A DNA stretch of 64,000 nucleotides from positions 124,001-188,000 of the forward strand of contig NZ_FWER01000003.1 of NCBI RefSeq assembly GCF_900169785.1, written 5' to 3'. The position numbers and the translations under genes are program-made. Under the pieces are notes generated by a model. That model was not told where the DNA came from and made no database searches. It saw nothing but the letters and a program-made list of their open reading frames with translations. The stretch comes from Rhizobium sullae (GTDB taxonomy: Bacteria > Pseudomonadota > Alphaproteobacteria > Rhizobiales > Rhizobiaceae). Below are positions 10,954 to 45,481 of the stretch, in pieces (the stretch's first letter is position 1; each line of letters starts with the position of its first letter).

Positions 10954-11700
10954 TTACTGTTCGAGCGCGAAGGTCACGTTGACCGTAACATTATAGGTGT
11001 TTTCACCGCCCTGGACCGGCACGGAAGCGTCGCTCGCCTCCTTCATCATCGCCGCGCGATAGGCCGGCTGCGGCAGGGGCCGAACGTTGTTTTCGCTGAT
11101 CTCGATGATGCGGCCGAGCTTCACGCCGGCAGCCTCCGTCAGCGTCTTTGCCTTCTTGATCGCCGCCGCAACGGCATCCTTGCGAGCCGCCTCGATCACT
11201 GCCTCCGGCTTGTCGTTGGTGAACTGGATGTCACCGCCCTGGTTGATGCCGAGCGTCACGGCCTGGTCGATGATGCCGCCCAGCTCGCCAAGATCGCGCA
11301 CGCGCACCGTCAGCCCGTTCGAAACCTGGTAGCCGATCAGCTCCGGCGGTTTCGGCTGGCCATCGGTGTTCTGCGGATAGTTATACTGCGGCTGCACCGA
11401 AAAGCCCGATGTCTGCAGATCCTTGTCGGCAATCCCGCCCTTCTTCAGCGCTGCCAGGACGCTCGCCATCGCCTTGTTGTTCTCGTCAAGCGCTTCGCGC
11501 GCCGTCTTCGCCTGTTTGACGACGGCAAGGTTGAGCACAGCCATATCCGGCGCCACCGCCGACTGGCCCTCGCCCGAGACCATGATCACCGGCTCGCGCG
11601 GCTTCGATTCGTCCGCCGCCGAAGCCGAAGCCCCCGCAAGCGCGGCCGGCATGCCGATCAGCACGCCGAAAGCCAAGTTCCTGATAGTCCGCAGCGCCAT
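10954..11700 (-). CDS. SIMPL-domain (DUF541) periplasmic protein
   Basis: A 248-residue secreted protein. Residues 1-29 (MALRTIRNLAFGVLIGMPAA plus LAGASASAA) are a signal peptide ending in an AxA cleavage site. The mature part is a SIMPL/DUF541 domain: IMVSGEGQSAVAPDMAVLNL, QTSGFSVQPQYNYP, IGYQVSNGLTVRVRDLGELG, AVAAAIKKAKTLTEAAGVKL and a C-terminal YNVTVNVTFALEQ. Family members (E. coli YggE) are periplasmic and linked to oxidative-stress tolerance; the mechanism is unknown. The ATG at 11700 has ggag 8 bases upstream and is preferred over the in-frame ATG at 11730. Confidence 0.88.
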   Translation of the reverse strand: MALRTIRNLAFGVLIGMPAALAGASASAADESKPREPVIMVSGEGQSAVAPDMAVLNLAVVKQAKTAREALDENNKAMASVLAALKKGGIADKDLQTSGFSVQPQYNYPQNTDGQPKPPELIGYQVSNGLTVRVRDLGELGGIIDQAVTLGINQGGDIQFTNDKPEAVIEAARKDAVAAAIKKAKTLTEAAGVKLGRIIEISENNVRPLPQPAYRAAMMKEASDASVPVQGGENTYNVTVNVTFALEQ

Positions 11701-11855
11701 TTTTTCACTCCTTGGTTGTCGCCATTTCACCTCACTCTTTGCCGATTGATTGTGAAGCTATTGCGGCAGCGTCTTGTCGCTGCATCCGAATTACGTTAGA
11801 GCGAAATCGCACCGGGGAACCATTGCCCCGCTGCCCGCGAGGCAAAGCCACGTGA

Positions 11856-11931
11856 GGGCCTGTAGCTCAATGGTTAGAGCCGGCGGCTCATAACCGCTTG
11901 GTTGGGGGTTCGAGTCCCTCCGGGCCCACCA
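11856..11931 (+). tRNA. tRNA with anticodon CAT (elongator Met or Ile2)
   Basis: A 76-nt cloverleaf with encoded CCA. The acceptor stem is GGGCCTG/CGGGCCC, the D arm contains AGCTCAATGGTTAGAG, the anticodon stem GGCGG/CCGCT encloses the loop CTCATAA (anticodon CAT), and the T arm contains GGTTCGAGTCCC. CAT can mean elongator methionine or the lysidine-modified Ile2 tRNA; the sequence alone does not settle it for me. Its 3' end is the integration site of the island that follows. Confidence 0.95.
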
Positions 11932-11932
11932 T
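11914..11932 (+). repeat. Left attachment site (attL core), 19-bp direct repeat
   Basis: GTCCCTCCGGGCCCACCAT spans the 3' part of the tRNA T arm, the acceptor strand and CCA. An identical copy is at 33921-33939. Integration therefore restores the tRNA gene, as is usual for tyrosine-integrase islands. Confidence 0.92.
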
Positions 11933-12041: not shown

Positions 12042-13700
12042 ATGTACTTATGGAAGCGCAGTGGGGGATTCACCTTTCAACAAAGAATTCCTTCTAGTCT
12101 CAAGATCAGGTTCGGCACCTCGCCCCTCAGAGTGAATCTAGGGCCGATATCTGCCGCAACAGCGAAAAAAAGGGCTTTTCTGCTCGCGGCGGAAAGCCTG
12201 CGCCTGATGGAAAGTCCGACGATGACGAGAGAAATCCTTTTGAAAAGTCTGTCAACGCTGGCCCAAGAATTGAAATCCTTGGATCGAGAGCGCTTCGGTG
12301 CTGGTCTCGGCGAGCTGCGCGCCATGTCGCGAATAGCGGACGCGATAGAAGAAGGTGATGTTGATTTTCTCCCGGCCCTTCGTCGGGAAGAACAGGTCGC
12401 CATCGCTCGGAAGCGCGAGATCGAATTATTTCGCGATCGGTTAGGCAAAATCTCCGGCGCGCTTTCCAGCGATGCGGTTGCCTGGGAGGCCGAACGGGCA
12501 ACGTATGAAAGCGTCGTAAGCTTGCTTGGGAGAATTGAGCACCAAATCGCCGCTCCGGCTCCCCCGATAGCGGTTGAGGCTGACTCCGAACACGAGTGCG
12601 ACGAAAGGGCTTTCAAGCCAACAACGCTTTTGAGCGTAGCTGGGCGATCGATTCTCGATGCCAGAAAAGCCGCGCTGAACCCAGACGATAAGGACGGCAC
12701 GCGCTATGAGGAGCGCTTGGAAACAGCGTTTACGGCTTTTTTGGAGGTGATTGGCGACAAGCCACTCCGGTACTACCTGCCGATCCACATGCAGGATTTT
12801 GCGACCATTCTCGCTCGCGTGCCTGCGAATCGCTCGAAAATCAAATCTTTCAAAGGAATGACTTTGAAAGAAATGGGTGAGGCGAACTCGAAGTTGCCTG
12901 CGGATCAGCGTCGGCGATGCCTGTCCGAAACAACCGTCGGCAGCTATCTTTCTGAAGTGAAAAATATCTGGTCGCGAGTGGCGGCCGGGGTGCCAGGCCT
13001 TCGCGATATGGGGGCGTATAAGGTCACAATGCCAACAGAGGCTGAAGAGGCTATCGACCGTGACCCCTTGCTCTTGACGTCCGTCAATCTTTGGCTGCGT
13101 TCGGCAAGCGAAAGCGCATTGATCAGGAAGCCACACAAAGTCTGGCTACCTCTTGTTGGGCTACTGACGGGAATGCGGCTCGCCGAGCTCGTTTACCTGC
13201 AGAAGGCCGACATCGTGGATGTTGAAGGAAACGAGGTACTTGACCTTCGCCTTCCACTTTGGATCGACGGGCAAGAAGTGGATAGGCCGGTAAAAACCAA
13301 GGCTTCGAAGAGGATCGTGGCAATACATCCGTTGCTGCGAGAAACGGGCTTTGTCGAGTACATGAAGACATGCAAGACGAAAACTGGTTTTGTCTTTGAT
13401 CGTTTTCACAGTGCGGAAGACCCAGCGGACGCAGCTCAAAAGCAGATGTCTAATGACATGCATGGGCTCGGCATTCACATGAGGCAGAGACAGGTTTTTC
13501 ACAGCCTACGGCACAACGCCAAGGACTGGGTTCGTTCGAATGTCGGGGATCGTTTGGCCGATAAACAGTGCGGACATGCACTCAACGGGACAGCGGCCAA
13601 CTACGGTGCGAAGCTTTTGACGCCGCCGGAAGTAAGGCTAATAATGTCGATGCCTGCGCCGGAAGGAGTAGATTTCTCGCCGTTTATCTCTCGCCGTTAA
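12042..13700 (+). CDS. Tyrosine site-specific integrase of the island
   Basis: A 552-residue integrase. The N-terminus MYLWKRSGGFTFQQRIPSSL resembles the DUF6538-type domain found at the start of many proteobacterial integrases, followed by a SAM-like core-binding region (about 200-330) and the catalytic domain. Catalytic landmarks are the first Arg in LLTGMRLAELVYL (about residue 378), HSLRH (about 487-491), CGHALNG and the nucleophile Tyr in AANYGA (about 520). It starts 110 bases inside the left att core and reads away from the tRNA, the normal position for an island integrase, and it should catalyse integration at the 19-bp core. It appears intact. Confidence 0.93.
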   Translation: MYLWKRSGGFTFQQRIPSSLKIRFGTSPLRVNLGPISAATAKKRAFLLAAESLRLMESPTMTREILLKSLSTLAQELKSLDRERFGAGLGELRAMSRIADAIEEGDVDFLPALRREEQVAIARKREIELFRDRLGKISGALSSDAVAWEAERATYESVVSLLGRIEHQIAAPAPPIAVEADSEHECDERAFKPTTLLSVAGRSILDARKAALNPDDKDGTRYEERLETAFTAFLEVIGDKPLRYYLPIHMQDFATILARVPANRSKIKSFKGMTLKEMGEANSKLPADQRRRCLSETTVGSYLSEVKNIWSRVAAGVPGLRDMGAYKVTMPTEAEEAIDRDPLLLTSVNLWLRSASESALIRKPHKVWLPLVGLLTGMRLAELVYLQKADIVDVEGNEVLDLRLPLWIDGQEVDRPVKTKASKRIVAIHPLLRETGFVEYMKTCKTKTGFVFDRFHSAEDPADAAQKQMSNDMHGLGIHMRQRQVFHSLRHNAKDWVRSNVGDRLADKQCGHALNGTAANYGAKLLTPPEVRLIMSMPAPEGVDFSPFISRR

Positions 13701-13762: not shown

Positions 13763-14461
13763 ATGAGAATCCGAGAATATTTCACTGGCAAATCGGACGT
13801 TACAAAGGCTCCTTCGGGGGCCTTTTTCAATGGACTTGTCAACAAATTTGACCTTCTCGCGGTCTCTCGACGCTTCGCCCACGCACCTCATGACCGCGCG
13901 ATAGTCTCTGATCTTCGCCAGCGCTCTCGGAACGCGGATGTGTCTGGCGCGGCGCTGCTAGAGGCCTATTTGGTATGGGAGCTGTCGCATTGGCGGCGGC
14001 TGGATATTCCGAAGCTAAGTCTGCTCTTGAGGTGGGTGCAGCGTTTTGATCCGAGCTTGTATGCCTATCTGTGTCACATCGACCAATTTCGGCAATGGAG
14101 AGACATCGCCGTCAGATCGGGCGCAGAGTTCAATAGGCTGGTCGCGTCTGGATACGAATGGCCGGACAGATGCGAGCCTTACTACCATCTTTCCGGCATA
14201 AAAGCCCTTGAGGGGATGCGTGCTGTCGGCGCTGGCCTATTGTCAGAACAAGCTAGAGTCTCCCTGGACCCAACGCCTGCTTCTCGCGCCGATACCGAAG
14301 TGGGAACGAGCGGCGGTGACGGATCGGGCGGCGGCGATAAGCGGCCCACTCCGAAGCCAAAAGGGGAAGATGAGGAGCCAATCAGCCCTCGCTCTTTTTT
14401 CGTCCCCGTCGATGTAGTGCCGGAAATGCTGCCGCCGTGGATTTCAAGGAGCGCCGATTGA
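13763..14461 (+). CDS. Hypothetical protein upstream of and coupled to dotA/traY
   Basis: A 232-residue protein I do not recognise. Residues 1-165 look globular and mostly helical with many aromatic residues (LEAYLVWELSHWRRLDIPKL, RWVQRFDPSLYAYLCHIDQF); about residues 185-215 are a Gly/Lys/Pro/Glu-rich linker (TSGGDGSGGGDKRPTPKPKG), and a short hydrophobic tail follows. The stop overlaps the start of the DotA/TraY gene (TGATG, 14459-14463), so the two are translated together and may act together. A longer in-frame reading from 13568 would overlap the integrase by over 130 bases, so I chose the ATG at 13763. Confidence 0.65.
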   Translation: MRIREYFTGKSDVTKAPSGAFFNGLVNKFDLLAVSRRFAHAPHDRAIVSDLRQRSRNADVSGAALLEAYLVWELSHWRRLDIPKLSLLLRWVQRFDPSLYAYLCHIDQFRQWRDIAVRSGAEFNRLVASGYEWPDRCEPYYHLSGIKALEGMRAVGAGLLSEQARVSLDPTPASRADTEVGTSGGDGSGGGDKRPTPKPKGEDEEPISPRSFFVPVDVVPEMLPPWISRSAD

Positions 14462-16512
14462 TGACTTTCGACCTCCTCGCGACACCACCGGCCACGGACA
14501 TTGCATGGTCTTGGCTAAATGCGATCTTACCAGATGATTCAAGTTCGCCGTGGGGGGCCGTGCTGTATACCTTCAGCGCCGCCCTGACGCTCTTCGCCTG
14601 TGGCCTGATCGGATACATGACGATTTCCGGAATCGTACAATCCGCTTACACTGGTAAGGTGCTTGGGGAACGCTGGCATAAGATTTTTACCCCCTTGCGA
14701 CTGATCGTCGGCATCGGCTTGCTCGTCCCGATCAACAGCGGTTTTTCCCCGGTCCATTTCCTCATTAAGGATATAGTGGGGCGGGTGTCGATCAACATCG
14801 CAAACGCGGTTTGGGTGGGGTTCGTGACGGATGTCGCTGGCCATGGCACGCCGATCTTGCCCACCAGCTCCGGAGGCTCCGGCCTTGTGCTGGACATAGC
14901 CGAACATGAAATTTGTGCTGCGGTTGGCAACGCAGTCGGACGCGGCCGGTACAATTCCACAAGCCCTATTCCCGATCCGCGCGGCGATGTCGGCGGCCTT
15001 GGAATCTTGGGATACCAGCAACAAGTTTCGTGGTCATACGGATCGGATTGCGGTCGGTTTTCGTTCACGATCCCCGACAATCGAGCGGCATTTTCAGAAG
15101 CTCGCCGAAACGCAGTCGCGACGATCGTCAGCGCGATCCGGCCAATCGCGACCGCATACGGCAAGGCGTATGCGGATGGCCGAAACCCAGGCGCGACGCC
15201 GGAAACGGCAATGCTTTCTGAATCGACTGGAAAGCTCCCTGCCGGGGTCGCTGAAGTGATCCGGGCAGCAGGGGCGGCATATGATGCGGTGATCTCCGAA
15301 GCTGCTCGTACGGAGGCCGTAAGTCTGGAAAGCGAGGCCCGTTCGAAACTCGTCGATACGGCAAAGGCACAAGGCTGGATCAGCGCGGGAAGCTACTGGC
15401 GATCTCTCGCCCAATTCTCGGAACTGACCGCCGCTCTTTCCGGGGAGAGGGTCGAGAACACGGCTCCCCGGTGGGGAAAGATGTCCGGCTTTGAGAACAC
15501 CATAAAGGCCGCTCTGGCGGGTCTGCGGCACCAGATAACCGGCGAGCAAATCGCCGTCGATCTCAGCGCCGCCGATCTCGCAGCGGCCGGGGATGAATCG
15601 GCGGACTTTTTGACCAAGGTACTCGGCCCGGTCACGCGCAATATTAGCGAATGGCTTGTTTCCACCGATCCGGACGCGGACCCGATGGGAGCAATGATCT
15701 CATCCGGACACGCGATGATTTCGGCCGCTGGAGTCGGTGTTGTCGCCGGAGCTGCGGCCAGCGCCGGGGCGTCAAATTGGCTCTCTGAGGCCGTAGGAGC
15801 TGGCGGGGCAATTGCGTGGTTGCTCGACTGGTCAAAGTTTGCCATCGGCGCTCTGTGGCTGATCGGCGCGGCATGGGCTTACGTCCTGCCGATGTTACCC
15901 TTTCTTCTCGTGATCGTCGCCGCCATCACATGGGCCTCTGCCATCATTGAGGCTATGATTGCGGCGCTTCTCTGGTCGCTGACCTGGCTGAGACAGGACA
16001 GCGATGATTTTGCCGGTCGGGCGCAGATGGCAGGGCTGATGCTCTTGGTCAATGTCGGCCTTCGACCAGTTCTCGCCGTCCTATCTCTGTGCGGCTCGTA
16101 CATGCTCCTGTCCATTTCCCTTGGAACCGTTCAGCGGCTTTTCGCGACCGCCTTTTTCGGAAGCACGGGCGGACACATCAGCGGACTTGCCGGTCTGATC
16201 GTCTCGCTACTCCTGCTGACGTTTATTCAGTGGTTTTTGTGCCTGCAGATTTTTGGCCTAATTGCCTCCCTTGCCGACAAGGTGGCGACCGGCTGGCTCG
16301 AAATGCCCTCAAGCGGCCAGATGGGCGAAGGCGGACACGTAGCGGCCGCTGTCGGCGGCGCTGCGGCCCTTGCGTCTCGGGGGACGCCGGGAGCCATTCC
16401 GCCGTCTCCTCGTCCGGAAAAAGAGGAACCTGACGATGACGACAACTCTAGTAGCAAGGCGACTGCCGTTTCGAGCGCGCCCCCGATCAAAAAACAGGAG
16501 AACAGCCGATGA
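14461..16512 (+). CDS. DotA/TraY-family integral membrane protein
   Basis: A 683-residue inner-membrane protein of the DotA/TraY family, a component of type IVB secretion and IncI-type conjugation machines. The family signature is strong at the N-terminus: SSPWGAVLYTFSAALTLFAC, VQSAYTGKVLGERWHKIFTP and LRLIVGIGLLVPINSGFSP. Two hydrophobic segments (about 30-60 and 85-110) are followed by a large soluble region (about 125-410), then a cluster of membrane segments (about 420-600) and a charged tail with DDDD. The start is fixed by the TGATG overlap with the upstream gene, and its end overlaps the next gene (ATGA, 16509-16512). No other type IVB genes are present in the window. Confidence 0.85.
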   Translation: MTFDLLATPPATDIAWSWLNAILPDDSSSPWGAVLYTFSAALTLFACGLIGYMTISGIVQSAYTGKVLGERWHKIFTPLRLIVGIGLLVPINSGFSPVHFLIKDIVGRVSINIANAVWVGFVTDVAGHGTPILPTSSGGSGLVLDIAEHEICAAVGNAVGRGRYNSTSPIPDPRGDVGGLGILGYQQQVSWSYGSDCGRFSFTIPDNRAAFSEARRNAVATIVSAIRPIATAYGKAYADGRNPGATPETAMLSESTGKLPAGVAEVIRAAGAAYDAVISEAARTEAVSLESEARSKLVDTAKAQGWISAGSYWRSLAQFSELTAALSGERVENTAPRWGKMSGFENTIKAALAGLRHQITGEQIAVDLSAADLAAAGDESADFLTKVLGPVTRNISEWLVSTDPDADPMGAMISSGHAMISAAGVGVVAGAAASAGASNWLSEAVGAGGAIAWLLDWSKFAIGALWLIGAAWAYVLPMLPFLLVIVAAITWASAIIEAMIAALLWSLTWLRQDSDDFAGRAQMAGLMLLVNVGLRPVLAVLSLCGSYMLLSISLGTVQRLFATAFFGSTGGHISGLAGLIVSLLLLTFIQWFLCLQIFGLIASLADKVATGWLEMPSSGQMGEGGHVAAAVGGAAALASRGTPGAIPPSPRPEKEEPDDDDNSSSKATAVSSAPPIKKQENSR

Positions 16513-16913
16513 AGATGAAGCTGATCATTTTGACCACCGCAATTTCGGCTCTCTCAGGCTCCGCATACGCGGAATGCTATCCTCTAACGGGCAGCCTAGT
16601 TGGAGGGTACGCGAAGCCTGCAGCAGTGGCTCATTGGCATTATGACCAATCGAAAAGCTCGCAAGACCTTTTCCCTTTTAGGAATGCCACTGGCGAGCCA
16701 ATGGAACTCGATCTACCGCCTTTTCTGTCAGCGCGGCGGCTCGATTCAGTAGGGTCTGCCTGGATGGTGACACTCAATCGAAAAATGACCGGGGTAGTAA
16801 CTTACGCTAATCGAGTGCGCTTCAAGGCTTTGAACGCCAACCCCGCCAGCGGCCCGGTTGGCGCGAAAATCGCGGTCACATGCACGTATACGGATCAGCT
16901 CACCCCCTACTGA
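16509..16913 (+). CDS. Small secreted protein in the dotA/traY operon
   Basis: A 134-residue protein with a signal peptide MKMKLIILTTAISALSGSAYA. The mature ~112 residues contain two Cys, one at the very start (AECYP) and one near the end (IAVTCTYTDQLTPY), which could form a disulfide linking the ends in the periplasm. No family is recognised. It overlaps the dotA/traY stop codon by 4 bases, so it is made with that protein. A periplasmic partner of the DotA/TraY protein is the obvious guess. Confidence 0.65.
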   Translation: MKMKLIILTTAISALSGSAYAECYPLTGSLVGGYAKPAAVAHWHYDQSKSSQDLFPFRNATGEPMELDLPPFLSARRLDSVGSAWMVTLNRKMTGVVTYANRVRFKALNANPASGPVGAKIAVTCTYTDQLTPY

Positions 16914-17269: not shown

Positions 17270-17473
17270 TCAATGCTTTTTTCTTCTGCCTTTTCGAAAG
17301 GCGATCAAAAGCAAACAGAGACCTGCGATATAAGGCACTAGTGACGATACTGCTGACGCGACCGGGAGCTTTTCCGCCAGCGTCATTGCAGCGATGAAAT
17401 AGGTGGGCGGCACCAGCATGAGAGCGGTTATGCCGAGCCAGCGTTTGACAAAGAGGATAGCGTTATATTTCAT
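17270..17473 (-). CDS. Small two-TM membrane protein (hypothetical)
   Basis: A 67-residue protein (MKYNAILFVKRWLGITALML...) with two predicted membrane helices (about 12-31 and 40-60) and a highly basic C-terminus FRKGRRKKH, which would anchor the tail in the cytoplasm. A ggaag site precedes the ATG. It lies in the leftward small-gene series. No family recognised. Confidence 0.5.
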   Translation of the reverse strand: MKYNAILFVKRWLGITALMLVPPTYFIAAMTLAEKLPVASAVSSLVPYIAGLCLLLIAFRKGRRKKH

Positions 17474-17507: not shown

Positions 17508-17747
17508 TCAGCGTGACATAAGGCGGTCAAATGCCTGTAGCCCGTCTCGCTGAATCTCTTTGCACAGCTCTGCCGCTGTTCCGGGCAGCCGCGATTTGCG
17601 AAGGAGCCTTTTCTCTGACCTTCCGCGATGCTGGACGTATATGGCTGCGTGGTACCAGATCGTGACGCCGTTGCTGTCTTGCTGCTGGACTTCAAGCACC
17701 TCGACATTAACCGTCAAACCCCGGATTTTCGTGATCGTCTGCTTCAT
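17508..17747 (-). CDS. Small soluble hypothetical protein
   Basis: A 79-residue protein (MKQTITKIRGLTVNVEVLEV...) with alternating beta-like hydrophobicity at the start (VNVEVLEVQQQDSNGVTIWY) and a basic, helical C-terminal half. The ATG has gagga just upstream. The ~90 bases before it contain several GGATT(C/T) elements and a GGATTC-TTGA-GAATCC dyad at 17800-17815, a possible operator. No family recognised. Confidence 0.5.
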   Translation of the reverse strand: MKQTITKIRGLTVNVEVLEVQQQDSNGVTIWYHAAIYVQHRGRSEKRLLRKSRLPGTAAELCKEIQRDGLQAFDRLMSR

Positions 17748-21401: not shown

Positions 21402-22070
21402 TCATCCTTTCACTCGCTCCTCGGGAGCCCAGAAGACAGAAATCGGCTTGTGTCGGACAAAGAACTGGCGTCCGTTATTCGAATGCGGCTCTCGCGACAA
21501 GAATTCGATCTTGTCCAGATCGTGCTTTAGCTTTTCGAGATTTTCTCGCTTACCCGCAATATGCCCAATCCAACTCTCCAGCACTTGATCAATTCGCTCA
21601 CAATTGCAGAAAATCAAAAGCCCACCTTTGTCCTGAGCAGGTAAGCAAGTCGCGTAGCGCGAGAATAGCTGCAGATATCCGTCTTCAATATGGGCGTTTT
21701 GCTTGCCAGTCACCAGCTTCGCCTCACCGAGCCAAAGTAGATCAACACCTTCCTTAATAACAATGTCGCAGTGGCCACCTACAGTAGAGTCATGAGAGGC
21801 ATTTAAACCAATGCCTTCTAGCCTTCCGATCATAAAGATGGAAAGCTGATCCTCGGACTGTTTTTGAAGCTCCTTGGGATACCTCGCCATTGTAGAGACG
21901 CATGAATCGATTGCGGCATCTACAATCGCGTAGAACTCATCGGCATCCTTCATACCTCCGGCACGCAAATTCATCAGCCGGTACTGCAGTTCCATACCGG
22001 TAGATAAGGAAACTATACGAAGCTCCTCCAAAGATGGCCTTTGCTGGCCTGCGGCATCAGTCATCTTCAA
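21402..22070 (-). CDS. PD-(D/E)xK nuclease-like protein, third gene of a compact cluster
   Basis: A 222-residue protein. Residues 73-118 fit the PD-(D/E)xK nuclease core: a helix with SEDQLSIFMIGRLE, then GGHCDIVIK with Asp102, and WLGEAKL with Glu116-x-Lys118. The following ~70 residues (YLQLFSRYATCL, KGGLLIFC) suit the rest of that fold. It should therefore cut nucleic acid, but the target is unknown. Its start overlaps the upstream gene by 4 bases (22067-22070), and that gene follows the 359-residue gene after 2 bases, so the three form a tight operon. This is the strongest hint that the cluster is a defence or anti-mobile-element system. Confidence 0.7.
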   Translation of the reverse strand: MKMTDAAGQQRPSLEELRIVSLSTGMELQYRLMNLRAGGMKDADEFYAIVDAAIDSCVSTMARYPKELQKQSEDQLSIFMIGRLEGIGLNASHDSTVGGHCDIVIKEGVDLLWLGEAKLVTGKQNAHIEDGYLQLFSRYATCLPAQDKGGLLIFCNCERIDQVLESWIGHIAGKRENLEKLKHDLDKIEFLSREPHSNNGRQFFVRHKPISVFWAPEERVKG

Positions 22071-22459
22071 TTACTACGCTCGAAGTATGGATAGAGGTGC
22101 TTTCTAAAATCCTTGACCGCCTCTCCAGAGTTTGGGTCTACTAGGAACCCGTGACGGTGTGCTTCCTGCAACTGTTCGGGCGATATCTTGTATTCGTCGC
22201 CGTTCACGTTTTCATATACATAGAACACGTTTAGCAGATGCACTCTTCCTGAGGTCAAGGTGGCGACGCATTGAAGCAGCCGACCGTCCGCTGGCTCTAC
22301 CTCTCCAAACTTTGCAAGCTGGCTGTATGAAATGTATTTGGCCTGACTGGGGCTCAGCGCTACGATATTTTTTGCAATGCTCTTGGCGACGTCGCAAGCG
22401 GGATCATCCGCTAGTATCCGGTCAATTTCCGCAATCGGCTCTGAAGCATCAACGCTCAT
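22067..22459 (-). CDS. Hypothetical protein, second gene of the nuclease cluster
   Basis: A 130-residue soluble protein (MSVDASEPIAEIDRILADDP...). The first ~60 residues look helical; the middle (LLQCVATLTSGRVHLLNVFY) looks beta-rich; the end DFRKHLYPYFERSN is basic and aromatic. No family recognised. It is locked between the 359-residue gene (2-base gap) and the nuclease-like gene (4-base overlap), so it probably acts in the same complex, perhaps as an adaptor or regulator. Confidence 0.6.
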   Translation of the reverse strand: MSVDASEPIAEIDRILADDPACDVAKSIAKNIVALSPSQAKYISYSQLAKFGEVEPADGRLLQCVATLTSGRVHLLNVFYVYENVNGDEYKISPEQLQEAHRHGFLVDPNSGEAVKDFRKHLYPYFERSN

Positions 22460-22461
22460 AG

Positions 22462-23541
22462 TCAGAGATAGCTCTCAAGTTTTTGCTTGATCTCGGAATA
22501 TTCCTGGGAGTCGCTACACTTACGAATTGTGGCCGAAAAGAGACCCGGCGAGGTGGATGCTGCCATTGTTGCACGACCGTCAAGGAAAAGCTCCGGGGAG
22601 CTGAATTCGCCGTGTTGGCCAGCAAGGACCCACCGAACTCCAATCCGATATGGTTCTATGTCTGCCGCCAAGGCAGCCTTGCCGTTAACATGATACACCT
22701 CTTTTCTGAGGCAAGCATCTCTATCGCGCATCTTCTCATGTTTCGTAGAACCGGTCGAAGTCGCAAATGCCAGTTCGATTATAATTCCTTCGTTCGAATT
22801 GTCATAGATTGGTTTAATGGCAGGGAAGAGATCAACTGGCGCAATTAGGGCCTTGGAACCCGATTTTCCATGGACATCAGCGTAAATTTTCTGGTGTGCA
22901 TTCGTCACGGCCTCTTGCGTCTCATTTCCTAAAAAGTCGGCCCGAACCTCAATGACCTTGCCCTTATGGGGAACCCAAACAACGTCATACGCCTGAACTT
23001 TCCGATTATGTATGCCAATGATTTCTTCGAAGTCACCAATAGCCTGCTGGGCGGCTTTGGGTAGCGATTGGACACTAAGTCGTTGACGCTCATCCTTCTT
23101 TCTCACCGAGGAATATATCGCGGCCATCCCGGTGGGGGTCTGATGCACATAGACTAAGGCCGGGTCGCTCAAGGACGCTTTCTGCAATTGCTGACCGGAC
23201 AGTGGCAGCGGGAGGAAAGGAGCATTTTTGAACTTCTGATATTGAAACCTTAGGTTGTCGACGTTCGCCTTCCCAAGATTGTAGAATCTTACAGATTTCT
23301 CTCCGGAGGAAATATGATCTAGATATGCTGTAACGAGGCCGTCAACGTCGGCCACGCCTTTGTGACTCTTGACGGCTTCGATAGTGTTCTCCCACCCATG
23401 CCCGATAGGAACCTGATGCTTATGGAAGATTTTCTTTGCGACGTACCACGGCGCTCGTTCCTGAAATACTTCGATCAGCTTCAGCAAACGAGCACTCGGA
23501 TTGGAATACGGCGTTCCTGCATTGTAAAAAAAGAAAAACAT
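22462..23541 (-). CDS. Hypothetical protein, first gene of the nuclease cluster
   Basis: A 359-residue protein I do not recognise. It begins MFFFFYNAGTPYSNPSARLL, is soluble, and contains QAYDVVWVPHKGKVIEVRAD and a C-terminal module with YRIGVRWVLAGQHGEFSSPELF. The ATG is preceded by aggggg, and an identical ggggga context precedes the divergent ParA-like gene. First place in the operon and largest size suggest a sensor or core component of the system. Function unassigned. Confidence 0.65.
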   Translation of the reverse strand: MFFFFYNAGTPYSNPSARLLKLIEVFQERAPWYVAKKIFHKHQVPIGHGWENTIEAVKSHKGVADVDGLVTAYLDHISSGEKSVRFYNLGKANVDNLRFQYQKFKNAPFLPLPLSGQQLQKASLSDPALVYVHQTPTGMAAIYSSVRKKDERQRLSVQSLPKAAQQAIGDFEEIIGIHNRKVQAYDVVWVPHKGKVIEVRADFLGNETQEAVTNAHQKIYADVHGKSGSKALIAPVDLFPAIKPIYDNSNEGIIIELAFATSTGSTKHEKMRDRDACLRKEVYHVNGKAALAADIEPYRIGVRWVLAGQHGEFSSPELFLDGRATMAASTSPGLFSATIRKCSDSQEYSEIKQKLESYL

Positions 23542-25781: not shown

Positions 25782-25930
25782 AATCACTGTTTCAAAATAA
25801 TGAACGACAGAATGTTTATTGTAAAGCCCCCATTGACGACGAAGTGAGCGTCGGGCTGGGAGATACCCCAGCCCAACAGACAGATTTCCTCGCCCCCGCC
25901 CGTCAACAAAATTGGCTTGATGGAACTGGG

Positions 25931-27475
25931 ATGGTCGGGTTCGAAAGTCGCTATGAAGAAGCTCGCCGCCGTAAGCGCGAAGCACGTGAAAAGCGGGGCA
26001 GTACTAAGGGTGAATTCAGCGAATTCGCGCTCGCCGCAAGTGAGCAGAACGGTTTAGTAAAGAAGCGCTTGGAAAACGGCTTCGAACTGCCCTTTGCACG
26101 TGAAATCGGCGGGCGAACAAGGCAGCCATTCCGGGAAATGGGCCTGCGATCCGAAAATAACGTCGTCCTAAAATATTTTGTGACACTCGTGCCGAAGGGT
26201 GGAGACGCCCGCGCGTCAGACGACAAAGCCACTCTAGCAGTTCAGTGCACATCCAAGCTGCTGACACTCGACTATGCATACATTGAACTGAATAGGGATT
26301 TTTTGGCGGCGCTCCGCGTCGATTGCGACGGCATTTTTCATACACCAGCGGCATGTCTTTTTCGTCTGACCGAGGCCGTTCGTGACGGCCGAATCCCATG
26401 TCTCCCTCACATAATCGTCGGCGACTTGCAGGACGATGGCCGGTATGCTCGGCCTCACTTTGTATGGCTGCTGCCGTACGGATCGGCAGTATGGCGTAGC
26501 GACGACGACCGGTGCCGTCAGAAGCCTATCCGGCTCTTCGACGCCGTTGCACGGGGTCTCGCTGCCGCACTGCTCGATCTTGGCGCGGACGCGGCTGCTC
26601 CGACCATGACCGGGCGCATGAAGAATCCGCTGAGTCCGTTCTGGCACACGGTCACGCCGAACGGTGACGTCTGGCCGACGCTGTCTGAGTACGCGGAATA
26701 TGTGGACACCAGCGCCAGCCGTGCCGTCCTCGCACGGGAGGCGGCGGCAGTGCAATCCGGTCTCGGTCTGACAGCATCGAACCGGCTGTTCGACGCGCTG
26801 CGCACGGAAGGCCAGCGGCTCCTGGCCGAATGGCATTTCGGAGCCGACGCCCGGATGCGCGGTAGCCGCGCGGCTATGGCCGACGATCTCCACGAAGCAC
26901 TGGCCGCCTTCGCGGAGAAGGCGGGGCTGGGCGAGGACGGCGTCAGCTACGTGACGGGTAAAGTCGCGGACTACCTCGCCTCGCACTTCGACGCCGCGAA
27001 GCTCGAAGCACCGCGCCGCGTCCGTGGCCGACTGCTCGATGTCGTCGATGGTCTGAAGACGGTCATTGAGCGACAGTCGGCGGGCGGACGGTATTCCGGC
27101 GCGGCGAAGGGCGCGGCAACGCTCCAACGGCTGCGTGAAGCCCACGAACAGCTTGTCGCGTCCGGCGAGGCCGTGACGCGGGCGTCGCTAGCTGCGGCGG
27201 CAGGCGTCTCTGTCCGGACGGCCACGGCGCGGTGGAGTGAGATTGTCCCCTATGGTGATACGCAACCGGAGAGCGGTGAAAATAGGTGTATAGATAAAAA
27301 GGGCGCTGCTCACTTTTCGGAGGCAACGTCGGCCAGGTTCGATCCCGCAAAACCAGATATGTCGACAGTATCTGCGGAGAACCTCCCGGGGCCGCACGCT
27401 ACGATCTGCTCCTACTCCAGGGAGGACGGGGTCAACGATGGAAAATGCAGCCCACTATCGCAAACGTTGCGCTGA
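25931..27475 (+). CDS. Plasmid-type replication initiator (replicase/RepA-like)
   Basis: A protein of about 514 residues (543 if the GTG at 25844 is used; I prefer the ATG at 25931, where the charged FESRYEEARRRKREAREKRG begins and the spacing to gaactggg is better). The central region has RPHFVWLLPYGSAVW and MTGRMKNPLSPFWHT, matching the KNPL-x-x-W signature of plasmid replicases of the ColE2-like/PriCT group. A helix-turn-helix lies near the end (ASLAAAAGVSVRTATARWSE). It would start DNA synthesis at an origin on the excised circular island. GC content here is clearly higher than in the preceding nuclease and ParA genes, suggesting a separate ancestry. Confidence 0.75.
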   Translation: MVGFESRYEEARRRKREAREKRGSTKGEFSEFALAASEQNGLVKKRLENGFELPFAREIGGRTRQPFREMGLRSENNVVLKYFVTLVPKGGDARASDDKATLAVQCTSKLLTLDYAYIELNRDFLAALRVDCDGIFHTPAACLFRLTEAVRDGRIPCLPHIIVGDLQDDGRYARPHFVWLLPYGSAVWRSDDDRCRQKPIRLFDAVARGLAAALLDLGADAAAPTMTGRMKNPLSPFWHTVTPNGDVWPTLSEYAEYVDTSASRAVLAREAAAVQSGLGLTASNRLFDALRTEGQRLLAEWHFGADARMRGSRAAMADDLHEALAAFAEKAGLGEDGVSYVTGKVADYLASHFDAAKLEAPRRVRGRLLDVVDGLKTVIERQSAGGRYSGAAKGAATLQRLREAHEQLVASGEAVTRASLAAAAGVSVRTATARWSEIVPYGDTQPESGENRCIDKKGAAHFSEATSARFDPAKPDMSTVSAENLPGPHATICSYSREDGVNDGKCSPLSQTLR

Positions 27476-27705: not shown

Positions 27706-27944
27706 CGATCGGCGTATGGCCTCCCCGACCATAAAGGGGTTCGCCGGAAGGCTCTCGATGAAATCGTCCCTCGGAAGAGCATCCATGGAATGGCCGACAC
27801 TTACGAAGTAAGTGGTAGTCGGTCACTACAGCTTTGCCGACGGCTCCTTCTTCCTTTCCGCCGATGGCTTTTGCTCCCAACATTTGACACACTTACGCGA
27901 ATCACGAGAGATTACGACCCTCTGATTGGGTTAGGAGACTGTAG

Positions 27945-28771: not shown

Positions 28772-31700
28772 CTACCCCAGGAGTTCAAATACGAGTTCGT
28801 TGATCTCCTGACCCTCCCCGGTCGCTTCGAGATGCGCCCGGATATGCCGTCGTGTAGCCGCGAAATGCAGATCGGGATCGATGGGAAATGCCGCGACAAT
28901 CTCTTCCGCGCTCTTTCCGAGTTCGGAGAGGCGGCGATGCGAGGCAATCTCCGGATCGTATTTCGGAATCGGGACCTCCCATACGTGCTTATGGATATCC
29001 CGCTCGTCCTTCCCATAGGACATGAATGGCCGCACCATCTCTGTCGTGACGGGGGCGTTCATGACGGCGCACAGATAGTCAGCCTCCTCTTCAGTTTCCA
29101 TTGATGCCCAATAAAGGCCGCTCGCGATGATGGCCCTCGGCTCCTTCACTTTGGCAGCCATCAAGTGCATTCCGGCTCGGTTGTAGACGATTCGGAGCGG
29201 AGGGGTCGGCAGTTGCTTGGACAGTTTTGACTGAAAGTCCAGCTGCTGCATCAGAGTCAGGCGCTCGCTGGATCGATGTTCCATCCAAAGCGCTTCGGCG
29301 CGCTCCCACCACTGACTGAGGCCGGGGTGAAGATCGATCTGGGACGACGGTAAGATGCCGCTCTTCCGGCAAGGGAGTACGACCATCTGCGCCGCGCCTG
29401 TCCGGTATGGATAGGCGTTGTCTCCGGTAAAGAATGGGCGGATGAATTCCGTCTCCACCACGCCATTCAGGTCTGGAAGCAGTTTCCAGGGCTTGTTTTC
29501 CTGCACGCTTCTGGACGACTTAATGGCCTTGCGTCCGGCTGGAACGCCGAGCGACGTCGCAGGCTGCTCCTCGACTACGAAGGCTATCCTCGGAGCGAAG
29601 ATCGCGCCTTGAGTGAAGGCAGGATCGTATGGCGATTTCGCCAGCTGTCCAATATGCTTGACCTGCCCCGGCTTCCGGCTCAGGGTCTTGCTGGCCTGCG
29701 TCCAGGGCAAATTCGACCCTGACAATCGGCCGCTCCAGATTTCCGCCTCCAACGGCATCTTGCGTCCGGCCCATGTGCCTTCGCCTTCCTTTGTCTCCCT
29801 GGTGTGCTCCTCGCGCCTTCCAAACACCACGGACGCAGCTCGCGGAAAGAAGTGCGGCCGAATACGCCGCAAGTCCCACGAAGGGTCGAAGGCGATGGCG
29901 GCATTACCGGAACCGTCACCGTAGTAGCCGCTCCGGAAGCCTGAGTAGTGCTCCCGGTCGATGGCGGCATTCGGGAGCACCAGTCCGAACCTGCCCTCGA
30001 CCTTTAGATAAAGCTCGCAGGCCCTAACGGCGAACAATCCAGACAAGTCTTGATGGGTCGAAAGTTCACCGCCAGCCCACAGTCCCCGCGCCTCGCTCAT
30101 CGCGCGGAAAGTGGCCTGCATATCTGACGTCATTTTGCGGTAGGCGAGCCACGGAGGGTTCCCGACCAGAACGTCGACTCGGTTCTTTGGTCGCGACAAC
30201 CAGAGCGGTCGGGCAAGGTTTCTGACGTAATAGCCCCAGATGTGGTCACGACCCTCGTCGTGCAGTCGGCACATAGTTTTGAACGTCGCCTCGATCGTCG
30301 GCTTAAACTTATCTGGTATGGCGAGGCGCTGAAGAACTGCATTCAGTGAGGGCACCGCCGACCCCGGCTTGCGTGTCGAGGCCTTGTTGGCCATCTCAGT
30401 CACGAGGTCGTCGAACCGGGCGGCGTTATCCAAAAGCCCATCGGGGAAGGATAGTTCGTTGCCGAAGAAGTCCTTCTTATCGTCCGTCCGGATAGTTAGG
30501 TTCCCGGCAGCCCACAGATCGGTGTTTTGTTCCTGCCATTGAAGACTGTCGCCAAGATAGACTGGGATGCGAATGGTCCCTCGATTGGGATCGACCAACC
30601 TGTGCCTGCCTATGGCGAGCAAGTAGGTGACACGGGCAAGGGTGACGGCCACCGGATGAAGGTCCATGCCGATAACGTGCTCCGTTACTCCGTCAATCAA
30701 CTCTCCCACTGGCATGCCTTTTGCCTCGGCCGCCGCGATGTATGTTCGGATCGCATGGAAGAGAAAGGTTCCAGAGCCACACGCCGCGTCCAACACTCGG
30801 GAATGAAGGGGGTCGACGACAGTTTCCTGGACGACAATGTCGGCGAGCCAGTCTGGAGTGTAATACTCGCCGAGACGCTGTCTGGTTTCGGTTCCGATGA
30901 CGCTCTCATAGAGCACCTTCAGTACGTCCTGTTCAACTTTGCTCCAGTCAAACCGCGCGAGGCGTTTTGCTAGTGTTCTGACAAAAACATCTCCTCCCTC
31001 GATCTCGACGACCCAATCAAAGAAGTCCGACTCGACCACCCCGTGAATTCCGCTTTCATCAAACTTATCGCCTGCCAAAAGTGCAGCGGGATTCAGTGAT
31101 TGTATGGGAAGGCCCAGGACCGCATGAGCAATAGTCTCGGCCGTATTGACGAGGAGCGTATGTTCAACAAACAGCTTGTCCGTATCTTCGAATGCAGTAC
31201 CGAGAGCGGATGTTAGAAGCCGTGACCACAGTGTCCGTTTCAGTTGGACAGTCGGGTTATTCTTGTTCTGTTCGTAAAGCGACGACATCGTCGCCCAATC
31301 CAACTGGTAGGAGCTGCTCCCGGAGCCTAGCCTCATCTCTATATTGCGAGCGGTTGGGGCGATATTCTGCGCGGTAGCGAGTACGCCTTCCAACCAGACA
31401 GTGAACCTCTCCATGTCGGCTGCTGACGGCTCGACCGTGATCACCGATACCTCTCGCAACTTGCCTTCAACGAGGTCATAGCAAAGCCATTCTGTGCCGT
31501 CAGTCAACAAGCCTACATAGCGAAGGCCGGTTTGGTTCATCCGCAGTTCCACGTAGCCAGCTAGTTGTTCGATGGCGTCAGCTTTGACCTTTCCCTTTCG
31601 CAGATCGCGCTTGATCTCAATGACCGTCGAACCAACCTCGACATCGATGCGCCTGCGGTCTCCGGTCTGCGATTCAAGCGAGACAATCTTGACGTCGTCC

Positions 31701-31810
31701 TCATCCAGATTGAGCGGGGCGCTCAAAATGAACTGGCGAACGTCAGCCTGAATCTCGGACTCTGTCCGCTTATCGTTGCGCCTAGCTATTCTGTCGAAGA
31801 TTTTCAGCAA
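28772..31810 (-). CDS. Type IIG-like restriction-modification enzyme (nuclease + N6-adenine methylase)
   Basis: A 1012-residue single-chain enzyme. The N-terminal domain has a PD-(D/E)xK core, RRRIDVEVG and VIEIKRDL, with Asp56 and Glu65-x-Lys67. The methylase domain has the AdoMet motif I VLDAACGSGTFLF (residues 339-351) and the catalytic motif IV NPPW (551-554) of gamma-type N6-adenine methylases. The C-terminal ~300 residues would recognise target DNA. This order (nuclease, helical linker, methylase, target recognition) fits type IIG enzymes such as the Eco57I group, so cutting and protection reside in one protein. It lies alone near the island's right end and appears intact. It would protect the host and stabilise the island. 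Confidence 0.85.
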   Translation of the reverse strand: MLKIFDRIARRNDKRTESEIQADVRQFILSAPLNLDEDDVKIVSLESQTGDRRRIDVEVGSTVIEIKRDLRKGKVKADAIEQLAGYVELRMNQTGLRYVGLLTDGTEWLCYDLVEGKLREVSVITVEPSAADMERFTVWLEGVLATAQNIAPTARNIEMRLGSGSSSYQLDWATMSSLYEQNKNNPTVQLKRTLWSRLLTSALGTAFEDTDKLFVEHTLLVNTAETIAHAVLGLPIQSLNPAALLAGDKFDESGIHGVVESDFFDWVVEIEGGDVFVRTLAKRLARFDWSKVEQDVLKVLYESVIGTETRQRLGEYYTPDWLADIVVQETVVDPLHSRVLDAACGSGTFLFHAIRTYIAAAEAKGMPVGELIDGVTEHVIGMDLHPVAVTLARVTYLLAIGRHRLVDPNRGTIRIPVYLGDSLQWQEQNTDLWAAGNLTIRTDDKKDFFGNELSFPDGLLDNAARFDDLVTEMANKASTRKPGSAVPSLNAVLQRLAIPDKFKPTIEATFKTMCRLHDEGRDHIWGYYVRNLARPLWLSRPKNRVDVLVGNPPWLAYRKMTSDMQATFRAMSEARGLWAGGELSTHQDLSGLFAVRACELYLKVEGRFGLVLPNAAIDREHYSGFRSGYYGDGSGNAAIAFDPSWDLRRIRPHFFPRAASVVFGRREEHTRETKEGEGTWAGRKMPLEAEIWSGRLSGSNLPWTQASKTLSRKPGQVKHIGQLAKSPYDPAFTQGAIFAPRIAFVVEEQPATSLGVPAGRKAIKSSRSVQENKPWKLLPDLNGVVETEFIRPFFTGDNAYPYRTGAAQMVVLPCRKSGILPSSQIDLHPGLSQWWERAEALWMEHRSSERLTLMQQLDFQSKLSKQLPTPPLRIVYNRAGMHLMAAKVKEPRAIIASGLYWASMETEEEADYLCAVMNAPVTTEMVRPFMSYGKDERDIHKHVWEVPIPKYDPEIASHRRLSELGKSAEEIVAAFPIDPDLHFAATRRHIRAHLEATGEGQEINELVFELLG

Positions 31811-32037
31811 TGCCCGCCCCTATTAAATGCAACTCTTCCGATTCGCGGAGGACCGCCACTCCGGCACGAGTCTTATCCGTCGTTCAGCCCCGATAGCAAC
31901 TCATCTTATCCTGACAGGCCGTGGTGCGACCTATTCGCTGCACTGAGTAAGCAACCGCAGTTTGTACACTTTTTACAACTTTGTCGTTTGCAGCACTTTA
32001 AACAATCCTGCGGAAAGTGTTCAACAGCGAGCTTGTC
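31811..32037. other. Gap before the relaxase gene, possible oriT
   Basis: A 227-base gap precedes the relaxase gene; MobV-type origins of transfer usually lie just upstream of the relaxase. The AT-rich stretch near 31950-32015 contains TTGTA-cactttt-TACAA, a small inverted repeat. No match to a known nick site is evident, so oriT here is only a positional guess. Confidence 0.3.
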
Positions 32038-33285
32038 ATGGGCTATCAGTTCGCCCACCTCGAAACCTATTCCCGTAAGGCGGACCCAAAAGGACGAAAC
32101 GTCGATTTCGTCCTCTCCGAAGCCGCGCGTAATCCAGAAGCGTCTATCCATGTTGCCAATCCGATGCAGCCGACTATCGTTTACGGGGTGGAAATTGAAG
32201 CGCTCCGCGAGCTGCACGACAATGCCGCGGCGTGCGCTGCGATAGCGGTCAAGGGGGGAAAGGCTCGTAAGATAAGACAAGATCAGAAGACCTTGCATAC
32301 TGTTGTTTGCTCACATCCTTACACAATGGAGGAAGTTCGCGCTGATTCCGCGAAAATGGCGGAAGCGTTGGAATGGGAACGGCGCACCGTCGAATGGCTT
32401 CGCAGCCAATATGGCGACGATTTAAAAAGTGTCATCCGCCATGAAGACGAAGCGCATTTCCATCTCCATGCCTACGTGATTCCGTTAGACGATCCCGAGT
32501 TCAAGGCGGCTCGATTCCACCCCGGGGTTGCAGCGAAACGTGAGGTCACGTCTCTTGGCGCTACAGACGGCGAAGACGGAAAGACTCTCTCGAAACGAGC
32601 TGATGCTGCTTACAAGTCCGCGATGCGCGCTTGGCAAGATTCCTATTATGAGGCTGTCGCCGTGCCGTGTGGTCTAACCCGTCTGGGCCCCGCTCGCCGA
32701 CGCCTCAGCCGGGAAGGCTGGCAGCAGGAGAAGACGCAAGCAAAAGCACTGCAGAAGACGATAGCCAGGGCGAAAACGCTGAAAAAATCCGCCGATTCTC
32801 TTATCGATCGGACACAAGCTGAAGCCGCGAGAATTATTGCTGAAGCCAAAGGACAGGCAGCCGCAGCGAAGCAATCGGCTGCCGCCGCAGTTGCTGCTCA
32901 GGACCGCGCAATAAAAGAGCAAGAAGCAGCTCGGTTGGCAATGGCTGAAGTCCAGCGCTATTCCGGCTTTGCGGGGAAGTTGCGTGCGATTTGGGATGGC
33001 CTTCGGAAATCAAAGGTCGCCGAAAAAATCCGTCGCGAGCTTTCCTCAGAGCTAGAGCGCGTCCATAGAGCTCGCGAAGCTGCCGAACGGCAGCTAGGTG
33101 CTGAGCGACGGCGTCGGGCAAAGGCCGATAGCGCGACCTCCGCTATGCGCCGCTCGATCTCTGAAGTTGCGCAGGAGCGTGACCATGCACGCTCTCAGCT
33201 TCAGCTTGATGATGAGCCGGTACACCCGGCTCCGCCTTTTGCTCCGAAATTTCCTTCAAGGCACCATGGCAAGTCGCGTCGGTGA
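32038..33285 (+). CDS. MobV/Pre-type relaxase (plasmid mobilisation protein)
   Basis: A 415-residue relaxase. It starts MGYQFAHLETYSRKADPKGR at 32038 (the family's usual opening; an upstream GTG at 32017 is less likely). The catalytic HUH-type motif is visible in RHEDEAHFHLHAYVIPLDD (about residues 134-152), where the HxH pair binds the metal. After about residue 225 the protein is a long charged coiled coil (AKGQAAAAKQSAAAAVAAQD, ERVHRAREAAERQL). MobV relaxases nick oriT and pilot the strand through a helper's secretion channel. It is the gene nearest the right att site apart from a small ORF. Confidence 0.82.
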   Translation: MGYQFAHLETYSRKADPKGRNVDFVLSEAARNPEASIHVANPMQPTIVYGVEIEALRELHDNAAACAAIAVKGGKARKIRQDQKTLHTVVCSHPYTMEEVRADSAKMAEALEWERRTVEWLRSQYGDDLKSVIRHEDEAHFHLHAYVIPLDDPEFKAARFHPGVAAKREVTSLGATDGEDGKTLSKRADAAYKSAMRAWQDSYYEAVAVPCGLTRLGPARRRLSREGWQQEKTQAKALQKTIARAKTLKKSADSLIDRTQAEAARIIAEAKGQAAAAKQSAAAAVAAQDRAIKEQEAARLAMAEVQRYSGFAGKLRAIWDGLRKSKVAEKIRRELSSELERVHRAREAAERQLGAERRRRAKADSATSAMRRSISEVAQERDHARSQLQLDDEPVHPAPPFAPKFPSRHHGKSRR

Positions 33286-33847: not shown

Positions 33848-34198
33848 TTAGTGAGTGTGTCCGCGATTTACAGGGCCGGATCGCTGCGTGGCAGGCGATT
33901 TCGGCGGCGCGCAGCGGGCGGTCCCTCCGGGCCCACCATTTCCGTCTTCGAACGTTGTTTTTGCGTCGTTTTTTCCTCGATATGTCTCACCGGCTCGATG
34001 AAAGTGGGACATTTTTGCGCGCCACATAGGTTTTGCGGCGCTCGAAACCGGCATCGATGATCCCCTTGGATTGAGCGGCTTCGTGTAGTGCTGCGCCATC
34101 TTGGAATCAGACCAGCCAAAGATCGCCATCAACTGATGTTCGGTCGCGCCGGCCCCGGCGAGGATGGTCGCGGACGCCTTTCTGAGACCGAGTGGTTT
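33848..34198 (-). pseudogene. C-terminal remnant of a second tyrosine integrase
   Basis: From about 34198 to 34080 the minus strand reads KPLGLRKASATILAGAGATE, HQLMAIFGWSDSKMAQHYTK, the catalytic end of a rhizobial integrase: GLRK box, ATEHQLMAIFGW and the nucleophile in QHYTK. The first catalytic His, usually HGLRK, reads Leu here. The reading frame runs on through the attR core to 33848. The N-terminal half of apparently the same gene is at 35929-36321, so the gene has been split. Its place right next to attR fits an older island that once occupied the same tRNA. Confidence 0.75.
33921..33939 (+). repeat. Right attachment site (attR core), 19-bp direct repeat
   Basis: A perfect copy of the tRNA 3'-end sequence at 11914-11932. 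It lies at the junction of the young island with older island debris, which begins directly with an integrase remnant. Confidence 0.92.
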
Positions 34199-34263
34199 TT
34201 CCCGATCGGGAAATTTACAGAAGCAAAAGAGATTGCCATCAATAATTTTCCCGATCGGCAAAA
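34198..34263. repeat. Two copies of a TTTCCCGATCGG palindrome, 48 bp apart
   Basis: TTTCCCGATCGGGAAA (34198-34213) is a perfect 16-bp palindrome, and TTTTCCCGATCGGCAAAA (34246-34263) is an imperfect copy. Paired palindromes like this are usually operators of a dimeric regulator, for example an antitoxin of the HipB/Xre class; no such gene is left nearby. Confidence 0.5.
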
Positions 34264-34284
34264 TATAGCCTCGAATTTGGCGGC

Positions 34285-34498
34285 TCACTGACCGATAAAA
34301 ACTCGCGTCTGCAAGAGCGACCTCGGAACTTGGCCGAGCTTCAAATGAGCGGTGAATGCAGCTTTATTCTCATTTACCAACCTCACACATTTCAGATGCT
34401 TGGCCAACAAATCCGGCCGTCCTTTCGCGTTCGTTTTTTGATAGCTGCTTTGCTATCTGGCTTGGCGTCTTCGCAAACTGAAGATCTTTGCATTCCAA
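34285..34498 (-). pseudogene. Fragment of an ECK-type (PD-(D/E)xK) nuclease-like protein
   Basis: The minus strand reads ECKDLQFAKTPSQIAKQLS and then, in another frame, GRPDLLAKHLKCVRLVNENK ending in VFIGQ at the TGA 34285-34287. The ECK box with the following helix resembles the C-terminal part of restriction-like nuclease proteins I have seen. A frameshift near 34410 joins the two segments. There is no start; only the 3' end remains. Confidence 0.45.
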
Positions 34499-34502
34499 AA
34501 GC

Positions 34503-34683
34503 ATGACACGGCCATCCGCGCTGAAAGATGCGCCTTCATTTATCGAGGCGGAATTTCCGGTTGGGCGACTTTCAGCAGAAGCTTACAAAGAGCGGAAAGC
34601 AATCATCGGTCAAACGTAAACGGGGCTGGGGTTCCTACTGGAAAGGCCGAAAGCCGCTTACGGCGTCGCTTTTGGCGCAGCCA
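34503..34683 (+). pseudogene. 5' fragment of a DUF1156 adenine-specific methylase
   Basis: From the ATG at 34503 the frame reads LKDAPSFIEAEFPVGRLSAE followed by AYKERKAIIGQT and a stop at 34617-34619; shifting frame gives GWGSYWKGRKPL up to about 34680. These are the characteristic first ~60 residues of DUF1156 methylases, which occur in phage-defence-type loci with DUF499/DUF3780 genes. The rest is missing. Confidence 0.7.
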
Positions 34684-45475: not shown

Positions 45476-45481
45476 TCCCGT

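Follow-up and report, generated by a model that had tools for sequence, protein, structure and literature searches.

The 64,000-nucleotide stretch of Rhizobium sullae DNA considered here (contig NZ_FWER01000003.1, positions 124,001 to 188,000; hereafter the window) carries an integrated element of 22,007 bp (window 11933-33939) at a tRNA-Met gene (11856-11931), and this island holds a solitary DotA/TraY gene (14461..16512, forward strand), which is predicted to encode an inner-membrane channel subunit of the VirB6 class, together with genes for an integrase and a relaxase. We report that this is not an isolated case and that the pairing of a lone DotA with a relaxase recurs in many rhizobial elements, and we discuss whether the island might lend its DotA to the transfer machine of a helper plasmid.

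The DotA open reading frame (ORF) is intact and its product belongs to the NCBIfam family TIGR04346 (DotA_TraY; 219.5 bits at a cut-off of 100), with an alignment that covers residues 37-616 of the 691-aa form and positions 24-651 of the 656 in the profile; it is the sole DotA/TraY match in its genome. The ATG start at 14461 sits within a longer listed ORF that begins with GTG at 14437. A Pfam search with the protein returned nothing at E 0.1, and since its score against NF033886 (the type IV secretion system DotA equivalog) was below the cut-off (149.3 bits vs 500) the gene was not filed as a Dot/Icm DotA. The best match of the structure model was the DotA of the Dot/Icm DotA-IcmX protochannel, followed by VirB6/TrwI, and the fold predicted by this single-chain model is that of DotA/VirB6 channel subunits. 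Two partners are coupled to the gene, as had been read from the letters alone. Upstream, the stop codon of a gene referred to as F1 (13763..14461, forward; 232 aa, cytoplasmic as judged by eye) shares one base with the DotA start (TGATG, 14459-14463), i.e. the two are translationally coupled; downstream, the ORF for a small protein (16509..16913, forward; judged by eye to be secreted, with a signal-like N-terminus) overlaps the DotA end by four bases.

The island boundaries were placed using a direct repeat and an empty-site comparison. The left attachment site, attL, is the 19-bp 3' end of the tRNA-Met gene (11914..11932) and attR is the 19-bp repeat at 33921..33939 (both on the forward strand). 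Another genome of the same species (G333) shows 100% identity to window 11200-11932 and continues with 33921-53048 (98.6%), with a 19-bp overlap; it carries the exact empty site of the island, and because its sequence runs unbroken from one 19-bp repeat to the other the insertion amounts to 22,007 bp. The tyrosine integrase gene (12042..13700, forward; DUF6538 and Phage_integrase domains) lies next to attL, and both domain scores are slightly under the Pfam cut-offs (Phage_integrase 25.7 bits vs 27.1); its family recurs at two related loci (L020 and L022), and the L020 copy exceeds the cut-offs. The relaxase gene (family F2; 32017..33285, forward) is situated at the far end, from where it would read, in the circular form, across the joined attachment sites towards the integrase, F1 and DotA genes. 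Its product matches MobV in NCBIfam (NF041497, 48.3 bits vs a cut-off of 100) and Mob_Pre in Pfam (19.1 vs 25.5), and as both scores are below the curated cut-offs we label it a divergent, MobV-like relaxase only. With an integrase, attachment sites and an empty site, a relaxase gene, a putative origin of transfer (oriT), and no complete set of mating-pair formation (MPF) genes, the sequence describes a predicted integrative and mobilizable element, and on this point the sequence-only reading, which had proposed an island with an integrase and a relaxase, holds good. Beside attR we also observed, by eye, a C-terminal integrase-like fragment (33848-34288, reverse strand); in G333 this DNA is likewise found next to the empty site, and the fragment is therefore probably the scar of another element.

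The claim that the island lacks other mating-pore genes was borne out as well. A complete type IVB system (MPF_I; TraU/DotO, DotG, DotH, DotI and a coupling protein) was not found in the window, where 14 MPF_I probes gave no match at E 1e-4; this check, which could have refuted the sequence-only reading by revealing further type IVB genes on the island, came out in its favour. Likewise, neither DotI nor TraU/DotO (two TraU probes) was detected in a whole-genome search of the host. The second TraU probe found nothing in 17 genomes, a set that contains no positive genome, and the other one recovers the TraU of the second probe's megaplasmid at 37.5% identity.

To what extent the arrangement occurs elsewhere can be seen from related loci. 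A protein search with the window DotA returned 103 proteins including itself, and the named sources seen were rhizobia and their kin. A scan of species genomes with the single protein as query found nothing, and the same scan with an alignment as query found 30 loci, which were used for ORF clustering along with the window stretch and stretches from two plasmids. In 18 of the 30 loci a MobV-like relaxase gene (F2), F1 and DotA follow each other in sequence, with overlaps between F2 and F1 in all 18 and between F1 and DotA in 17. Nine other loci have a relaxase gene of the MobQ/MobL class (F7; the class assignment rests on one tested member) divergent from a small gene, F9, which is followed by DotA; F9 is MobC-like, and one F9 protein matches 409 plasmid records, and the 15 of these that were listed bear the annotation mobilization protein, MobC or hypothetical protein. 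The locus L029 has a MobQ-like match near DotA. A tRNA gene is present in 7 of the 30 stretches, and insertion at the tRNA has been demonstrated for the window only.

Within the family, 19 of 199 genomes match the DotA_TraY profile. DotI was found in six of the 199 and the rhizobial TraU/DotO ATPase in the same six, which have further conserved genes between TraU and DotA (MPF_I blocks); in the remaining 13, including the host, neither DotI nor TraU/DotO was found. A hidden type IVB system was considered and is rejected on the basis of DotI, the two TraU probes and the 14 local probes. Eleven of the 13 have DotA together with a relaxase, MobV-like in five (the window's own genome, G009, G050, G054 and G107) and MobQ in six (G023, G051, G088, G148, G159 and G166), and in two (G010 and G035) no relaxase of the tested families was found in the stretch. 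In the reverse direction, the F2 relaxase matched 14 of 199 genomes, eight with E below 1e-40, and in five of these eight DotA is part of the same element or adjoins it. An order-level search with the window relaxase matched six of 199 genomes, the five others at 33-40% identity. In the genus, the window DotA matches five of 148 genomes, with one gene broken in two pieces. Thus the part of the sequence-only reading that placed a lone pore subunit on a mobilizable element stands, and generalises.

Moreover, the MobV-like loci share a hairpin with a TCGGTC core upstream of the relaxase gene. In nine loci it has the form TAGTCGGTCACT, and eight loci, whose relaxase is of a second subtype, show TATTCGGTC together with a partner arm. 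In total, 17 of the 18 loci have it at 77 to 975 bp from the relaxase start, and the exception (L028) is cut inside the gene. At least five of seven stem pairs are present in 16 of the 17, and the pairing is kept despite different letters; the hairpin was also found upstream of the relaxase gene in three of three further relaxase loci. The window has one exact copy of the core (27816-27828), preceded by a second hairpin (27798-27814), and sequence comparison suggests that this region (27798..27829, forward; CACTTAC-GAA-GTAAGTG followed by GTAGT-CGGTC-ACTAC) acts as a putative oriT. A scan of the window for the core with up to two mismatches gave two matches vs 0.79 expected, and 21 of 100 shuffles reached two.

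The lone DotA genes are under purifying selection: the ratio of nonsynonymous to synonymous substitution rates (dN/dS) is 0.066-0.232 in 14 of 14 pairs, and as dS is above 1 in seven of the 14 those ratios are rough. The single MPF_I pair (L056-L059) gave 0.032 at a dS of 2.8. In a tree of 52 DotAs, from which copies of other loci (L065, L066, L068, L071 and L072) and the broken L028 were left out, the window is part of a MobV-type clade of 20 rows (support 98/97; its label, A_MobV, includes L002 and L003, where no relaxase was found). This clade is joined to one MobQ clade (99/97), and the other MobQ elements form a separate clade, a topology from which we conclude that the relaxase class was switched while DotA was retained; long branches limit the deeper forks of the tree. 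The other alphaproteobacterial plasmid DotAs L032, L033, L080 and L083, with no MPF_I neighbours in the stretch, also sit on long branches.

Solitary TraY genes were also seen on small, complete gammaproteobacterial plasmids. The Enterobacter asburiae plasmid p9MO13m20 (40.9 kb; L090 and L091) has a lone TraY and three annotated pilins, two of which were tested as PilS; its TraY has 449 matching records, and among the 60 matches listed 23 are on records below 60 kb, while at least 19 plasmid records match it at 99% identity or more. The plasmid p11K1 (22 kb) has a lone DotA and a MOBP relaxase, and pPT14-32 (34.5 kb) a lone DotA/TraY. The 14 MPF_I probes had no match in these three, the only lone-TraY plasmids on which other genes were checked. 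All 14 are alphaproteobacterial, and in the stretch of a Pseudomonas plasmid typed as MPF_I (L082) only one of them matches, weakly; most weight therefore falls, where gammaproteobacterial plasmids are concerned, on the TraU probe, which matches widely and reaches this class best. A pilin-like protein at L003 (F65, by eye) had no Pfam pilin match and was not used. On the megaplasmids pRlX5, M. extorquens AM1 and Bosea pANAM02 (L079/L139, L081/L140 and L033/L141), TraU and DotA are about 150 to 200 kb apart, i.e. these replicons hold dispersed type IVB-like genes, and a DotA that is alone in its stretch is therefore not always alone on its replicon; the pRlX5 DotA (L079) falls inside the lone-DotA clade though pRlX5 holds TraU elsewhere.

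What a lone DotA might do is suggested by known systems. In R64 and pCTX-M3, exclusion depends on TraY together with ExcA, with TraY as the donor-side target, according to PMC6112013 and PMC8923210, and the genomic island SGI1 encodes a VirB6-like TraG that, as described in PMC5389848, remodels the pore of its IncC helper and disables exclusion. By analogy, we consider that the island would lend its DotA to the type IVB (MPF_I) machine of a helper in the donor cell, a reading to which we assign a probability of about 0.5, and we infer for the island a function in subunit swap and evasion of exclusion. On entry of a helper plasmid the island would be excised and then undergo nicking within the hairpin region, the island DotA would replace or mix with the TraY of the helper, and the hybrid pore would escape recognition by the ExcA-type exclusion protein of the helper in recipients, such that the island could enter cells already holding the helper. 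The hybrid pore may also favour the island's own relaxosome; that F1 might serve as a relaxosome or channel adaptor is the weakest step. Rhizobial MPF_I plasmids are a plausible kind of helper: relatives of TraU and DotI are present on Aminobacter pSR4 and on plasmids of Sinorhizobium sp. CCBAU 05631 and Shinella sumterensis, and TraY is present on pSR4, the one of the three that was checked for it. These plasmids belong to the same order and, unlike the island, carry further type IVB genes. SGI1 can be moved after its helper arrives from the recipient, according to the same source (PMC5389848), and an island that awaits a helper thus need not reside together with one.

Several observations weigh against this helper swap. 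The sequence-only reading had advised a search for type IVB plasmids in the host and its relatives and a comparison of their TraY; such systems do occur in the relatives, as the six MPF_I genomes show, but none of the 13 lone-DotA genomes, the host included, yielded an MPF_I helper, and the swap itself is therefore still conjectural. The window DotA is 25-26% identical to rhizobial MPF_I TraY (four of six rows, global alignment), in contrast to 40% between TraG of SGI1 and that of its helper (as given in PMC5704250). In the tree the six rhizobial MPF_I rows form their own clade (100/100) and the lone DotAs theirs. No exclusion gene was identified, and the idea that the proteins encoded downstream of DotA, the secreted one and the small membrane ones, are exclusion factors found no direct support. 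With respect to mobilization, the window hairpin has five of seven stem pairs, weaker than in the relatives, and failed a 6-of-7 scan; it is also located 4.2 kb upstream of the relaxase gene, farther than in the relatives, and two genes, one of them for restriction-modification, separate it from the relaxase gene. Two loci (L002 and L003) have F1 and DotA and no relaxase in the stretches examined, which for L003 extend from about 30 kb before to about 28 kb beyond the DotA start. Conversely, three of the eight genomes with strong MobV-like matches (G017, G153 and G096) have no DotA in 16 kb around the relaxase gene, and with five of eight having it DotA is a frequent but optional companion of this relaxase. 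DotA is broken in two of the 30 loci (L028, and L021, which corresponds to G050 and has the N-terminal part in another frame). Finally, the transfer systems found in the host are of the MPF_T type, with five VirB4 matches.

One alternative, which we regard as unlikely while still worth weighing, is that DotA, as a VirB6-class protein, serves such an MPF_T (VirB/Trb) helper, either by docking the relaxosome at its VirB6/TrbL hub or by partly replacing that hub. A broader reading, in which the relaxase-partner-DotA operon would be a portable protochannel, appears doubtful to us: mobilizable elements across Proteobacteria, with relaxases of the MobV, MobQ and MOBP classes, would bring a VirB6-class hub of their own, coupled to their own relaxosome, and fit it into any machine at hand, MPF_T included, and this single part would determine both the DNA that is transferred and the exclusion systems that are ignored. 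A little more doubtful is a membrane complex of DotA, F1 and the secreted protein with an unrelated job (e.g. surface attachment or uptake), linked to mobilization genes by chance: the three relatives tested do encode immunoglobulin-like (He_PIG) proteins in the region after DotA, but a chance linkage fits poorly with the repeated pairing with two relaxase classes and, outside the rhizobia, with a MOBP relaxase on a plasmid. A spare DotA might also act against MPF_I plasmids that arrive in the cell, by poisoning or blocking their pore, as fertility inhibition or superinfection exclusion that protects the niche of the island. The MPF_I marker is indeed found in none of the 13 lone-DotA genomes, but by chance an overlap of only about 0.4 genomes would be expected (13 x 6/199), so this zero is uninformative, and as DotA adjoins relaxase or MobC genes, which fits transfer better than immunity, we consider such blocking improbable. 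The two broken genes could suggest that DotA is only a passenger, or a relic left by an earlier type IVB conjugative element; we reject this as very improbable, given the dN/dS values and the fact that DotA has been kept next to different tRNA genes and in the company of two classes of relaxase.

Coming back to the helper swap, the closest parallel is SGI1, which like the island is mobilizable and brings its own VirB6-class pore subunit (TraG, with TraH and TraN, acting with IncC), in SGI1 the exclusion target on the donor side. As portrayed in PMC5389848, SGI1 has three subunits of the MPF_F type, no relaxase of its own and a demonstrated function, whereas the island has a single MPF_I-type DotA, its own relaxase gene, a likely oriT and a function deduced by analogy. 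GIsul2 is also mobilizable with few MPF genes (TrbJ, TrbK and the VirB6-like TrbL); in the account of PMC5704250 these are, unlike those of the island, of the MPF_T type, the element is listed without a relaxase and an IncP helper is merely proposed. TraY of the IncI and IncL/M plasmids, the target of ExcA, represents the same subunit family, but according to PMC6112013 it is part of a complete transfer region, whereas the island DotA is alone with mobilization genes. The Legionella DotA (9ngy; PMC12857230), as described there, is a 1048-residue chain of an effector secretion system; no IcmX homologue was found on the island in searches that did not use IcmX itself as query. Among the open-licence PMC papers searched we recognised none describing DotA/TraY on mobilizable islands, and neither term turned up in a term search of a survey of Mesorhizobium integrative conjugative and mobilizable elements (PMC8627217). 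If the proposal is true, taking an exclusion-target channel subunit would be a general strategy of mobilizable DNA, demonstrated for MPF_F (TraG of SGI1), listed for MPF_T (TrbL of GIsul2), and with the island as its MPF_I case, one that 11 of 199 family genomes show in combination with a relaxase gene and that is echoed on small gammaproteobacterial plasmids. It makes directly testable why a single pore gene is retained by such elements and which helpers are responsible for the movement of islands among rhizobia.

The F1 protein of the window has diverged from the rest of its family (hhalign probability 75, E 2.5e-5; in hmmsearch, one sequence with a domain E of 4.4e-7), and a protein search with it returned only itself. 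The modelled F1 relative at L005 has a helical domain and a disordered tail (predicted local distance difference test score, pLDDT, 71.6; mean 82-97 per block of ten for residues up to 120), and a Foldseek search of this model against the PDB gave no match with E up to 0.001. The secreted protein likewise matched only itself in a protein search and had no Pfam match; an IcmX-like role was considered for it and dropped, as the searches made revealed no homology. Downstream follow, on the reverse strand, a small membrane protein (17270..17473; by eye), which has a 41% identical match beside F3 in G320 (E 9.6e-8), and F3 itself (17508..17747), a small conserved protein present in 18 of the 33 stretches compared, window included, and also at two of the three relaxase loci where DotA was not seen. 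When the secreted and small membrane proteins of the window were compared with 19 neighbour families of the relatives, no hhalign match above 20% was obtained except for F1.

The island also encodes a resolvase-like recombinase, a ParA-type ATPase and defence-like cargo. A gene pair at 19181-21291 matches RmrT and RmrA in PADLOC (235 and 590 bits), and 28772-31810 (reverse) codes for a type IIG restriction-methyltransferase-like protein (PADLOC, 255 bits). Three adjacent genes at 21402-23541 (reverse), with no Pfam or PADLOC match, form a possible defence cassette. A family found in four stretches including the window (F29; 25844..27475, forward) has no Pfam match, and a role in replication is only a guess. 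Outside the island, 38479-39414 codes for one protein with both a nucleotidyltransferase and a HEPN domain.

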